Assembly: GCA_019637095.1 (NCBI GenBank)
Contig: JAHBWG010000096.1
Coordinates: 1 to 32,473 of the forward strand
DNA length: 32,473 bases
Direction: 5' to 3'
Origin: Sandaracinaceae bacterium
Lineage (GTDB): Bacteria > Myxococcota_A > Polyangia > Polyangiales > Sandaracinaceae
The notes under the pieces were generated by a model. It did not search any database. It was given only the letters and a program-made list of their open reading frames with translations, and was not told where the DNA came from. Position 1 is the first letter of the stretch. Each line of letters begins with the position of its first letter. Made by a program: the position numbers and the translations under genes. This document shows, piece by piece, positions 27,940-31,982 of this stretch.

Positions 27940-28293
27940 TCACCACGCGCTCATCGAGCCCAGGTCGTGGACCTCGTAACCGCGGGCCCTCAGCAGCCGC
28001 GCCGCGCTCGCCGAGCGGACCCCCGAGTGGCAGTACACGACGACGCCGTGCTCGCTCGGCACCTCGGCGATCCGCCGCTCGAGGTCGCCGACCGGGATGT
28101 TGATGGCGCCGTCGGGGTGCCCCGCCGCGAACTCGCGGGGGGTCCTCACGTCGAGCAGCGTCGCGCCCGCGGCGACCATCGCGTGCGGGTCCGCGCCGCC
28201 GGCGGGCGCGGCGGACTCGGTGGACGCGCCGGCGGTGCTGCACCCGGCGGCGAGGAGGGCGAGCAGCGCGAGCGTGGTGAGGCGGCGCGTCAT
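27940..28293 (-). CDS. Rhodanese-domain lipoprotein
   Basis: Seen: 117 residues, ATG at 28293, with AAAGGA six bases upstream. Lipobox LLAAGC (Cys18) after a short signal peptide. One rhodanese domain: LLDVRTPREFAAGHPDGAIN (47-66) is the CH2A-type segment, and the active loop CHSGVR (Cys88-Arg93) in VVVYCHSGVRSASAA carries the catalytic Cys. The ending (LLRARGYEVHDLGSMSAW) is also usual. Known: single-domain rhodaneses move sulfane sulfur between thiols; lipid-anchored ones act outside the inner membrane. A sigma-54-type promoter with a normal 5' leader lies upstream. Inference: extracytoplasmic sulfur-transfer or redox role. Confidence 0.92.
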   Translation of the reverse strand: MTRRLTTLALLALLAAGCSTAGASTESAAPAGGADPHAMVAAGATLLDVRTPREFAAGHPDGAINIPVGDLERRIAEVPSEHGVVVYCHSGVRSASAARLLRARGYEVHDLGSMSAW

Positions 28294-28341
28294 GGCGTTC
28301 CTTTCGTGCTCGAGTCTCGTCGAGCTTCCCTCGCACGTCGA

Positions 28342-28355
28342 GCAACGCGCGTGCC
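28342..28355 (-). promoter_or_regulatory. Sigma-54-type -24/-12 promoter of the rhodanese gene
   Basis: On the minus strand: CGGCACG-CGCG-TTGCT, nearly the full consensus TGGCACG-N4-TTGCW with the correct 10-base GG-to-GC spacing. The predicted start lies about 37 bases before the ATG, leaving room for the AAAGGA ribosome-binding site. The GGCACGCGCGTTGC core is identical in the element at 27831-27844. Confidence 0.65.
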
Positions 28356-28487
28356 GGCGCCCTGCTGCGCTGGCGAGCGCCGACGAGGGGCTCGGGGTGT
28401 TGCGCGCGGCGCGGCGGGCGTCGCAGGTCGTTGCACGATCGGCGGCGCGCCGTTGACTCGCGCCCGGACCAGAGGCTTGATGGAGCG

Positions 28488-31400
28488 ATGAATGGCCTTC
28501 GCTGGGCGTTCGCCCTCACGCTCGCGCTCACGCTCCTGCCCTCGCGCGGGCACGCGTTCACGACGCGCATCCACATCGTGATCGCGAACGACGTGCGCGT
28601 CGCGCTGATCGAGAGCGGCGACGGGACCATCCAGCTGCGCTGGAGCGAGCACGCGGTGCGCATCCCGCCTCAGGACGCCGAGGCGATCATCAACCAGCCG
28701 CTCGCCTTCCGCGCCGGCGCGATCGGCCCCGACAACGTCGTGTTCCCCGCGATGACCGACGGAACGCACGGCGTGGAGCAGGACCCGTACCGGCAGTGCG
28801 AGCTCCTCTACCTCGAGGCGATCACCGAGGTGGAGCGCGCGTACGCGCTCGGCTGCTTCCTGCACGGCGCGACCGACGCGGTCGCCCACCACTTCGTCAA
28901 CGCGTTCACCGGCGAGACGTTCACGCTCGCCCCGATCACCGCCTCGCGCGGGCCGAGCTGGGACAACGTCGTCGGTCACATGGTCACCGAGAGCGTGATC
29001 CAGGGCGCGGTCCACGCCGCCGAGCCGAGCCGCTTCGCGTCGGGGCAGCTCCAGCATTCCGTCCCGCACGACTTCGTGCTGCGCACCTACTTCTCCACAC
29101 GCAGCCCCGTCTGGCAGCAGATGGCGGCGCACTCGCTCGAGCGCTGGGAGGTGCTGCGCGCTGCCGATCCCGAGGGGACGGTGCTCACCTGGGCGCGCGG
29201 CGCGGGCTACGGCGCGTGGGAGCAGATCGCGATGGCGCCCGTGTACATCGACGAGCTGCAGCGCCTGCGCGCGAGCCTGCGCACGTGGGTGCTCGCCGAG
29301 ATCACCGACATGAGCGACCCGAGCACCGAGCGCGGCATGCGGCTGCGCATCGAGCCCGGCCCCGACGCAATGCGCGGCACGCCCGACGACGTCCGCGGCT
29401 CGGGCACGTGCAGCGTCACCTCGCCGTCCTGCGCAGAGCTCGTCGCGCGCTACTACGTCTTCGTCAACGTGCTGGCGCCGCGGCGCGACGCCGGCGGCCG
29501 CGAGCTCCCGTCCGCGTTCGACACCCTCTCGGACGGGCTCGGCGACCAGCTCTACGGGTTCCTCCCCGCGCTCGTGCGCGTGATCGACAACCTCTCCGCC
29601 GTCCTCAACGCGCCCATCCCCGCGGGGGACACGACCGATCACGGCTTCGACCTGCGCCCCGCCGAGATCACCGGCCTGTTCATGCCGCTGACCGACTGGG
29701 TCAACGGGCTCGTGCGCACGACCGACGCCGGCTTCGACGGGCTCGCCGACGCGATCACGCCCGCGTGGTACCGCGACCTCTCCGCGTTCCTGCGCTCGCT
29801 CTCGATCGACATCACGGTGGGCAGCATCCTGCGCGCGCTGTTCGGTCCGATCCTCGCCGACATCCGCGACGCGCTCGTGCGCGAGGTGCGCGAGCGCGCC
29901 GAGGCGTACGTGCGCGAGCTCGCGTCCGAGTACGCGTCCGGTCGCGACGGCTGGCGCGCGTCGGTCGCGGGTAGGCTCGCCGAGTCGGCGCCGAGCGGCC
30001 TGGGCGGTCACGCGCTCGACCACGCGCTCAGCTCCGGCCTCTACGCGTACGCGTTCAACCTCACCGCCGCGGCGTTCGCGAACCACGAGGTGGTGCTGGT
30101 CTCGGGCGACCCGATCGCGAGCGGGCCGACATCGTTCGACGCGTCCTACACGCCCGACTGGACGCAGGCCGGCGCGTGCGACTACCTGCGCGCCGCGGTG
30201 TTTCCGGAGGGCCTCGGGCTCGCGCCGCTGCTGTCGGCCGAGCGCGACGGCGTCGTGCTGCGCGCGACGAGCGAGGACAGCCCGGTCGAGTGCCACGCCG
30301 GCTCGCTCAGCGCGTTCGGGCCGCCGAGCCGGGTGAGCTGCGCCCACACGCGCATGCAAGATCTCTTGCTCGATCCGAACGGGTCGCTCTCGCGCGCCTA
30401 CCCACCGCTCCACGCGTCGGGGGACCCGGGCTGCCGCCGCCTCGTCGTCCCGGGCCTGCCCGACCCACCGCCGCTCGGGAGCGACGGCGGCGTGCCGGGG
30501 CTGGACGGGGGCGTGGTGGTGCACCCCGACGGATCGACGCCGCTGCCCGGCATCGACGGGGGGTCCGGCGGCGAGCCGAGCGACGGCGGGTGCGGCTGCC
30601 GCGCGACGGGCAGCGCGCCGCCGCGCGGGTGGCTGTTCGCGCTCGCGGTGCTCGGCGCGCTCGCGTGGCGGCGCCGGCGGCGCTTGCGCGCGCCGCTGGC
30701 CGCGTTCGGCGTGCTCGCCGCCCTCGCCGGCTGCGACGGCGGCCCGGTCGATCCGCCGGGGACCGACGCGGGCGGAAGCGACGCGGGGACGCCGCCGATG
30801 ATGGACGGCGGCGTCACGCCGATGGACGACGCCTCGATGCCGCCGATGATGGACGCGGGCGCAGACGCCGCGGCGCCGCCGATGGACGCGGGGCCCGACC
30901 CGCGGCGCGTCCTGCTCGACGCGCTGGCCGGATCGGTGTGGAGCGCGCAGCTCCCGCGCGACGAGGGCGGCCGCGCCGTCACCCGCGCCTACGAGATGCG
31001 CTTCGAGTCGCGCGACCTCCAGTGGGCGGAGATCCGCAACCCGTTCGGGCCGTCGCGTCAACGGATCTTGCGATCCTTCGCGCCGCGTGCGGACGGCCTC
31101 ACGGTGGACAGCACGATCATGATCCCTGCCGGCTGGGAGACCCCGGAGCCCCTGCGCGGCCGCCGCGAGACGTGGGAGATCGAGATCATCGAGGGCGACC
31201 CGCGGATCTTGCGCCTGCGCAACGCGACGACCGGAATCGCGGAGGAGCTCGCCGAGGGCGCGTGGCCGGTGCCGGACGACGGGCTCACCGCGGAGCTGCG
31301 CGTGTTCGCCACGGGGGGCGCGGTCGACGAGGCCTACTGCGCGTGCGGCACGTTCTGCTCGTTCGACCGCGGCGTGCTCTGGGACTTCGCGCGAGGCGCG

Positions 31401-31934
31401 AGCCTCGAGCTGCCGCTCGGCGAGGACGTCGCCGGCGGCGTCCGACCCGCGCAGTGGCTCGACACGAGCGGTCGCGACGCGTTCGCGGTGACCGACGTGC
31501 CCGGCTTCGACCGGCTCGGCGCGACCACCCTGAGCGCGCAGAGCAACTTCGTCGTGCGCTACCACGGCACGCTCCGCCACCCGGGCGGCGACGTCTGGTT
31601 CCGCGAGCGCGACACCGGCGGCACCGCGAGCGTCAACGGCGGCCTCTGGGCGTGGATCGGGCCGGGCGTCGGCACCACCACCTCGACCGGCCTCTGGTTC
31701 GAGTCGCACTGGGCCGCGACGTCCGACTGGACTCCCGACGAGGTCAGCGCGAGCTTCCCCGCCGGCGACGTCGCGATCGAGATCGTCATGGTCCGCTGCC
31801 GCGACCGCGAGCTCTCGGGCCGGCGCGACATCACGCCGCAGATGCGCTTCGGCAGCGGCGCCTTCCTGGACACCGCCACCATCGACCGCTTCCGTCCCGA
31901 CCTCGACCCCGCGCTCTTCCCTCCCGCGCTCTGA
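28488..31934 (+). CDS. Zinc phospholipase C-like secreted protein fused in frame to a second lipoprotein
   Basis: Seen: 1,148 residues from the ATG at 28488. Residues 1-22 are a signal peptide. The first domain has TRIHIVIANDVR (His29), Asp82 in AIGPDN, and FLHGATDAVAHHF (His126, Asp130, His134/135), the pattern of zinc-dependent phospholipase C/S1-P1 nuclease-like proteins. A Gly/Asp/Pro-rich linker leads at 702-704 to GCGC, an apolar segment GWLFALAVLGALAW and RRRRR, a MYXO-CTERM-like sorting tail that normally ends a protein. Instead the frame continues as LRAPLAAFGVLAALAGC (lipobox Cys749), a DAG/PPMMDGG linker and a 350-residue beta-rich domain with CACGTFC. A TTG at 30684 could start this second part separately. 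Either a true fusion, or two genes whose intervening stop was lost or misread. Confidence 0.8.
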   Translation: MNGLRWAFALTLALTLLPSRGHAFTTRIHIVIANDVRVALIESGDGTIQLRWSEHAVRIPPQDAEAIINQPLAFRAGAIGPDNVVFPAMTDGTHGVEQDPYRQCELLYLEAITEVERAYALGCFLHGATDAVAHHFVNAFTGETFTLAPITASRGPSWDNVVGHMVTESVIQGAVHAAEPSRFASGQLQHSVPHDFVLRTYFSTRSPVWQQMAAHSLERWEVLRAADPEGTVLTWARGAGYGAWEQIAMAPVYIDELQRLRASLRTWVLAEITDMSDPSTERGMRLRIEPGPDAMRGTPDDVRGSGTCSVTSPSCAELVARYYVFVNVLAPRRDAGGRELPSAFDTLSDGLGDQLYGFLPALVRVIDNLSAVLNAPIPAGDTTDHGFDLRPAEITGLFMPLTDWVNGLVRTTDAGFDGLADAITPAWYRDLSAFLRSLSIDITVGSILRALFGPILADIRDALVREVRERAEAYVRELASEYASGRDGWRASVAGRLAESAPSGLGGHALDHALSSGLYAYAFNLTAAAFANHEVVLVSGDPIASGPTSFDASYTPDWTQAGACDYLRAAVFPEGLGLAPLLSAERDGVVLRATSEDSPVECHAGSLSAFGPPSRVSCAHTRMQDLLLDPNGSLSRAYPPLHASGDPGCRRLVVPGLPDPPPLGSDGGVPGLDGGVVVHPDGSTPLPGIDGGSGGEPSDGGCGCRATGSAPPRGWLFALAVLGALAWRRRRRLRAPLAAFGVLAALAGCDGGPVDPPGTDAGGSDAGTPPMMDGGVTPMDDASMPPMMDAGADAAAPPMDAGPDPRRVLLDALAGSVWSAQLPRDEGGRAVTRAYEMRFESRDLQWAEIRNPFGPSRQRILRSFAPRADGLTVDSTIMIPAGWETPEPLRGRRETWEIEIIEGDPRILRLRNATTGIAEELAEGAWPVPDDGLTAELRVFATGGAVDEAYCACGTFCSFDRGVLWDFARGASLELPLGEDVAGGVRPAQWLDTSGRDAFAVTDVPGFDRLGATTLSAQSNFVVRYHGTLRHPGGDVWFRERDTGGTASVNGGLWAWIGPGVGTTTSTGLWFESHWAATSDWTPDEVSASFPAGDVAIEIVMVRCRDRELSGRRDITPQMRFGSGAFLDTATIDRFRPDLDPALFPPAL

Positions 31935-31982
31935 GCTCGCCAGGCATTCGAGGCGTCTGTGTCTGGGACGCAAGACCGCCGA

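Follow-up and report, generated by a model that had tools for sequence, protein, structure and literature searches.

A MYXO-CTERM sorting signal that runs in frame into a lipoprotein signal: a recurrent class of putative surface polyproteins in Myxococcota

To our knowledge, it is rare for a cellular bacterial polyprotein to be cleaved into separate surface proteins; an older polyprotein with an internal signal is the fbcH cytochrome b/c1 precursor. According to Guo, Haft and Wall (2025; PMC11980579), the MYXO-CTERM signal is cut by myxosortase after export, its cysteine is thought to be lipidated, and internal copies of the motif are rare. One such example is MXAN_5598 of Myxococcus xanthus, described there as an atypical, apparent gene fusion in which an outer-membrane beta-barrel and an OmpA domain follow the internal MYXO-CTERM, and for whose N-terminal part the authors propose processing and surface anchoring (PMC11980579). 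A comparable case in archaea is HVO_0405 of Haloferax volcanii, which joins two formerly independent genes and undergoes cleavage at an archaeosortase site in its centre (PMC7157517).

The locus considered here lies in a window of 32,473 nucleotides, by which we mean the whole stretch of DNA that was analysed (contig JAHBWG010000096.1 of the Sandaracinaceae assembly GCA_019637095.1), and is a single open reading frame on the forward strand (28488–31934; 1148 residues), opening with ATG and closing with TGA (31932–31934). It begins with a putative Sec signal peptide (MNGLRW...GHA, 28488–28556), read from the sequence with the cleavage site placed by eye, and continues through an upstream domain (28557–30485) to an internal, tripartite MYXO-CTERM signal (30582–30683), namely the Cys motif GCGC (Cys codons 30591 and 30597), the transmembrane segment GWLFALAVLGALAW (30630–30668) and the Arg cluster RRRRR (30669–30683). 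Behind RRRRRLR (30669–30689), an Arg-rich loop common to the MYXO-CTERM end and the n-region of the next signal, which presumably is cytoplasmic and serves both, the frame goes on into APLAAFGVLAALAGC. The latter is a type II (lipoprotein) signal (30684–30734), delimited by pattern and hydropathy into the n-region RRRRRLR, the h-region APLAAFGVLAA and the lipobox LAGC (Cys codon 30732–30734). It occupies residues 733–749 of the ORF rather than the N-terminus of the chain, and leads into a second part, roughly 400 codons long, composed of a low-complexity Asp/Gly/Pro-rich linker (30735–30899) and a downstream lipoprotein domain (30900–31931). That a MYXO-CTERM tail runs without a stop into a lipoprotein signal at 30585–30740 had been noticed in a sequence-only reading and was borne out by the stop-free translation (GGCGCRATGSAPPRGWLFALAVLGALAWRRRRRLRAPLAAFGVLAALAGCDG) and by the MYXO-CTERM model TIGR03901 (NCBIfam), whose score was 31.6 bits for the protein and, in a genome scan (30582–30683), 37.8 bits, with a cut-off of 20. 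Because 416 residues follow it, placing it away from the extreme C-terminus, we call this MYXO-CTERM an internal variant and not a canonical member. GC3 stayed at 96–100% across the junction. The opposite strand carries an antisense ORF of 1227 residues (28290–31973) facing the fusion, as is to be expected at about 74% G+C, and just upstream of the fusion a small ORF on the reverse strand (27940–28293), rhodanese-like by eye, has a lipoprotein signal of its own (LLAAGC).

With MXAN_5598 the window ORF shares an internal MYXO-CTERM within a fusion; however, in the former a barrel and an OmpA domain follow and not a lipoprotein, whereas the window ORF is of a recurrent type with a lipobox (PMC11980579). 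It likewise resembles the MYXO-CTERM proteins sorted by MrtX (TraA and others) in its Cys motif, transmembrane segment and Arg cluster, in a score above the NCBIfam cut-off and in a myxosortase (MrtC) encoded in the genome, but its signal is internal and leads on, without a change of frame, to a lipoprotein signal and a second protein (PMC11980579). HVO_0405 is also a two-gene fusion with a central sorting site, yet it involves an archaeosortase and a PGF motif, is described as strain-specific, and no second lipoprotein signal is named in the portion of the report at hand (PMC7157517). The TraA-TraB pair is reminiscent of the split homologues treated below, as a MYXO-CTERM gene overlaps the gene of an envelope partner, although it consists of two ORFs and two proteins without fusion (PMC11980579). 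Ordinary lipoproteins processed by Lgt and LspA have the same positive n-region, hydrophobic core, lipobox and disordered linker, but in the window the signal comes about 730 residues into the chain and behind another transmembrane segment. Thus, single internal MYXO-CTERM fusions are known from MXAN_5598, whereas we did not find the tandem of MYXO-CTERM and lipobox described as a class in the literature searched, outside which most subscription papers lay. The same search yielded no paper on lipo-invert or internal lipobox signals, none on the fbcH precursor and, among the papers listed, nothing relevant on polyproteins.

The upstream half of the protein scored 25.1 bits against the Zn-dependent phospholipase C family (PF00882), just under the gathering cut-off of 26.8, a remote likeness; its AlphaFold2 model (pLDDT 83.9) is mostly helical. 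A known fold for this half was rejected, as a Foldseek comparison of the model with PDB structures returned no match at E ≤ 0.001 and the PDB profile search gave just weak matches to DCC-interacting protein (E 0.04–0.09). The downstream half was predicted with a pLDDT of 92.1, and in a fold search its residues 2–120 (about 30900–31259) resembled a lipocalin-like barrel (4iab, Z 10.1) and its end (about 31263–31913) the PA14/flocculin-like fold (2xjv, Z 14.5, rmsd 2.9, 173 aligned residues), including the PA14 domain of an RTX adhesin (6m8m, Z 13.7), though a PDB profile search found no match for this half. The predicted fold suggests a role in sugar binding, with the reservation that a shared fold as such shows no function.

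A whole-protein search of 56 related genomes recovered open, full-length, stop-free fusions in seven further genomes, spanning several genera and families (G005, G006, G008, G015, G045, G051 and G053). A scan of named genomes, some of them the same as in that search, gave 34 loci, which were sorted by their reading frames. Seventeen are fused with both signals, two are fused through both signals with a frame break further downstream (L070 and L075), and one, L083, is fused but has just one hydrophobic segment (GCGGC...LLLVLLAGAC-TRRG) that may double as MYXO-CTERM and lipobox, so that the tandem is not universal in the family. Three loci hold separate adjoining genes: in L074 the stop of the first gene and the ATG of the lipoprotein gene overlap, L078 has two bases between the genes, and L077 appears to have overlapping frames. 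Each of these split genes keeps its own signal, the MYXO-CTERM ending the first and the lipobox beginning the second. At five loci (L071, near a contig end, and L093–L096) the MYXO-CTERM closes the upstream gene and no partner was seen, and a further six (L076, L081, L084, L086, L087 and L092) are cut or truncated ahead of the junction. Fusion was therefore found at 20 of the 28 loci with a readable upstream gene end (17 + 2 + 1). The fused homologues include the isolate Paraliomyxa miuraensis SMH-27-4 (L069). On the closed plasmid pSa001 (209,732 bp) of Sandaracinus amylolyticus MSr10575 the fusion is one RefSeq CDS, WP_206607166.1, annotated merely as "MYXO-CTERM sorting domain-containing protein".

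Within the fusions, the sorting residues stand out from an otherwise variable linker. When eight fusions, of which two are near-identical, were aligned, residues 661–813 contained only six invariant columns, namely one Gly (G692), both MYXO Cys (C702 and C704), two Arg (R729 and R730) and the lipobox Cys (C749). Among 23 aligned junctions, two of them from other families and all chosen for having the lipobox Cys, the lipobox Cys and the first of the MYXO Cys were invariant, and the second MYXO Cys was nearly invariant, as were two Arg. Furthermore, pooled pN/pS from ten pairs, which share some rows and thus are not all independent, was 0.50 for the MYXO-CTERM with the Arg cluster and 0.58 for the loop with the lipoprotein signal, both short stretches, and 0.45 and 0.42 for the flanking domains; the junction evolves as coding sequence.

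The arrangement is a recurrent class and not one gene. Among the best 30 of the 34 TIGR03901 hits in the window genome (G000), 27 end within 15 residues of the signal and three, namely the window gene, L033 and L038, run on, all of them reaching a lipobox. Together with the best 30 of 43, 43 and 61 hits in G006, G001 and G155, this amounts to 120 MYXO-CTERM tails, of which 109 end within 30 residues, one at 31, and ten run on for more than 100. A lipobox lies within 55 residues in nine of these ten, the tenth being a tail in G001 that runs on for 117 residues without one (L225). By the same loose rule, chance lipoboxes occurred in 511 of 12,648 non-junction windows of 50 residues (4.0%), so that a lipobox behind a MYXO-CTERM that runs on is not due to chance; in each shifted frame, none of 74 tandem junctions had one. 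A junction profile, with 22 candidates scored per genome, detected many more stop-free hits in 289 genomes of the class, numbers which are lower bounds, and both signals lay in one open frame in 38 of 40 stretches taken from such hits; one of the two exceptions stops after the Arg residues (L174). In the other, L164, the MYXO-CTERM tail runs into a signal-peptidase-I-like signal and not a lipobox, hence lipoproteins are not the sole kind of partner.

Clustering of the 74 tandem ORFs gave 17 clusters for the upstream and 20 for the downstream parts, including three large ones of 23/22, 20/20 and 13/11 members. Their junctions were picked by profile hits or by reading as stop-free with both signals, leaving out L164, L174, L131 and L083, and their uniformity is thus partly by construction. 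According to Pfam, some fusions join complete enzymes. For instance, L132 combines a GH15 glucoamylase with an alpha-amylase, L186 an Amidase_3 with a PD40 propeller (the latter just below cut-off), L122 subtilase, P-domain and PKD with lamin-tail domains, L144 LGFP repeats with a pectinacetylesterase, L143 and L160 Kelch with Kelch, and L184 a nidogen-like domain with MopE motifs, while the first half of L151 contains a trypsin and the second half of L167 a GDSL lipase. Several of the tandem ORFs with assigned partners exceed the MYXO-CTERM cut-off. As a name for the junction, the lipo-invert tail model NF058595 (NCBIfam; 19.1 bits in the window, cut-off 37) was rejected as noise, because it matched weakly in relatives (16 of 19) and control genomes (5 of 14) alike and never exceeded its cut-off, including in all 19 relatives.

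From the open frame, the presence and conservation of both signals, the homologues in fused as well as split form, the wider class and the enzyme genes, all of which were observed, we propose that the gene probably encodes a polyprotein, in which the tandem signals form a membrane hairpin that is cut by myxosortase and LspA, freeing two lipid-anchored surface proteins. The window genome encodes the myxosortase MrtC (NF040594, 257 bits, cut-off 195) as well as LspA (122 bits) and Lgt (155 bits), both over cut-off. The topology, the lipidation, both cuts and the surface location we infer as follows. The upstream part would be exported by its own N-terminal signal peptide, whereupon the MYXO-CTERM segment would insert from outside to inside, leaving the Arg cluster in the cytoplasm. 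There, the cluster would also act as n-region of the lipoprotein signal, which would insert from inside to outside, resulting in a membrane hairpin between two lipidatable cysteines; positively charged residues at this place would suit both signals, as the inner end of the first transmembrane segment and the n-region of the second. Myxosortase, here MrtC, would then cut just behind the MYXO-CTERM Cys, and Lgt and LspA would lipidate the lipobox Cys and cut before it. The hairpin would be thrown away, yielding in equal amounts a phospholipase C-like protein anchored at its C-terminus and a lipocalin/PA14-like protein anchored at its N-terminus.

Several other readings have to be weighed against this polyprotein model. 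The sequence-only reading itself had considered a lost stop or an assembly error between two genes, such as an assembly or sequencing indel, and many of the genomes are indeed draft MAGs, with frame breaks downstream in L070 and L075. But stop-free, in-frame junctions of differing length recur in many genera and also in the closed pSa001, which excludes an assembly error for the family, and the likelihood of such an artefact is negligible. Contrary to the case that would have refuted that reading, in which orthologues are always two separate genes, most orthologues are fused and a few separate. The two sorting signals are carried back to back by one real polypeptide. Nested genes would be another way to obtain a second protein, by re-initiation at an internal GTG or TTG, making the read-through fusion minor or unimportant. 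Two in-frame codons of the window precede the lipobox, GTG 30648 and TTG 30684, either of which might in principle serve as a separate start for the second protein (GTG 30711 being too near). Some usable ATG, GTG or TTG, meaning one 13–45 residues before the lipobox Cys, occurs in 61 of the 74 junctions, a share that may owe something to chance. However, only 26 have a usable ATG, 13 have no usable start and 6 none at all, and in L002/L003 and L004 no ATG, GTG or TTG was found between the GCxC motif and the lipobox. Internal initiation was therefore rejected as a general explanation, and since no stop precedes it the fused product must still be made, so that nested genes seem very improbable.

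The remaining alternatives concern what becomes of the fused chain. If neither signal were processed, the hairpin would be an inner-membrane anchor holding two ectodomains together, which the topology would permit. Yet the six sole invariant residues of the junction region include both sorting Cys and two Arg, for which a plain anchor would have no need; furthermore, the split homologues end and start separate proteins with the same signals, and myxosortase, Lgt and LspA are all encoded, all of which makes an uncut fusion unlikely. Alternatively, only one cut might take place, for instance at the MYXO-CTERM and not at the internal lipobox, leaving the second half signal-anchored. Processing at an internal MYXO-CTERM has been proposed for MXAN_5598 (PMC11980579) and the central archaeosortase site of HVO_0405 is cut (PMC7157517), and in the literature examined we found no comparable precedent for an internal lipobox, nor a documented case in which LspA cleaves a signal preceded by about 730 residues. 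Against this stands the lipobox Cys, invariant in 23 of 23 aligned junctions, albeit in a set picked for having it, and we regard a single cut as quite improbable. The strongest, though indirect, support for the double-cut hairpin comes from the existence of split homologues with the same ends.

Extending the polyprotein model to the class, we consider it rather likely that Myxococcota follow a general strategy, in which functionally paired surface proteins (for instance glucoamylase and alpha-amylase, or phospholipase-like and lectin-like proteins) are made in one chain with a removable tandem myxosortase/LspA hairpin, giving equal amounts of C- and N-terminally lipid-anchored partners, and in which fused and overlapping-gene forms interconvert. 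The class spans many families; its candidate proteases are defined, its size predictions are clear, and it offers natural substrates for testing myxosortase and LspA in one molecule. Moreover, fusions show which MYXO-CTERM proteins are partners, and they are a warning for annotation, as a second lipoprotein can be hidden inside proteins named only "MYXO-CTERM sorting domain-containing". As both Cys would lie on one hairpin, the class also bears on which acyltransferase lipidates the MYXO-CTERM Cys, for which an extra Lgt paralogue is a candidate. The window genome contains eight Lgt-family matches over cut-off, seemingly about seven genes (on C79, C111, C110, C90, C154, C185 and C3), and at C90:97017-99192 two adjoining LspA matches are directly followed by an Lgt match.

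Fused and split states require at least three changes on a tree of both halves, forced by well-supported branches; two of the rows, L027 and L134, comprise the downstream half only, and two changes suffice if L027 is left out. L027 is the free-standing lipoprotein half in G038, where the upstream half is cut by the contig end, and its sister L065 is fused. Finally, L039 and L052 are MYXO-CTERM genes that end normally and have an ORF with a lipoprotein signal downstream in another frame, reminiscent of an unfused version of the pairing.
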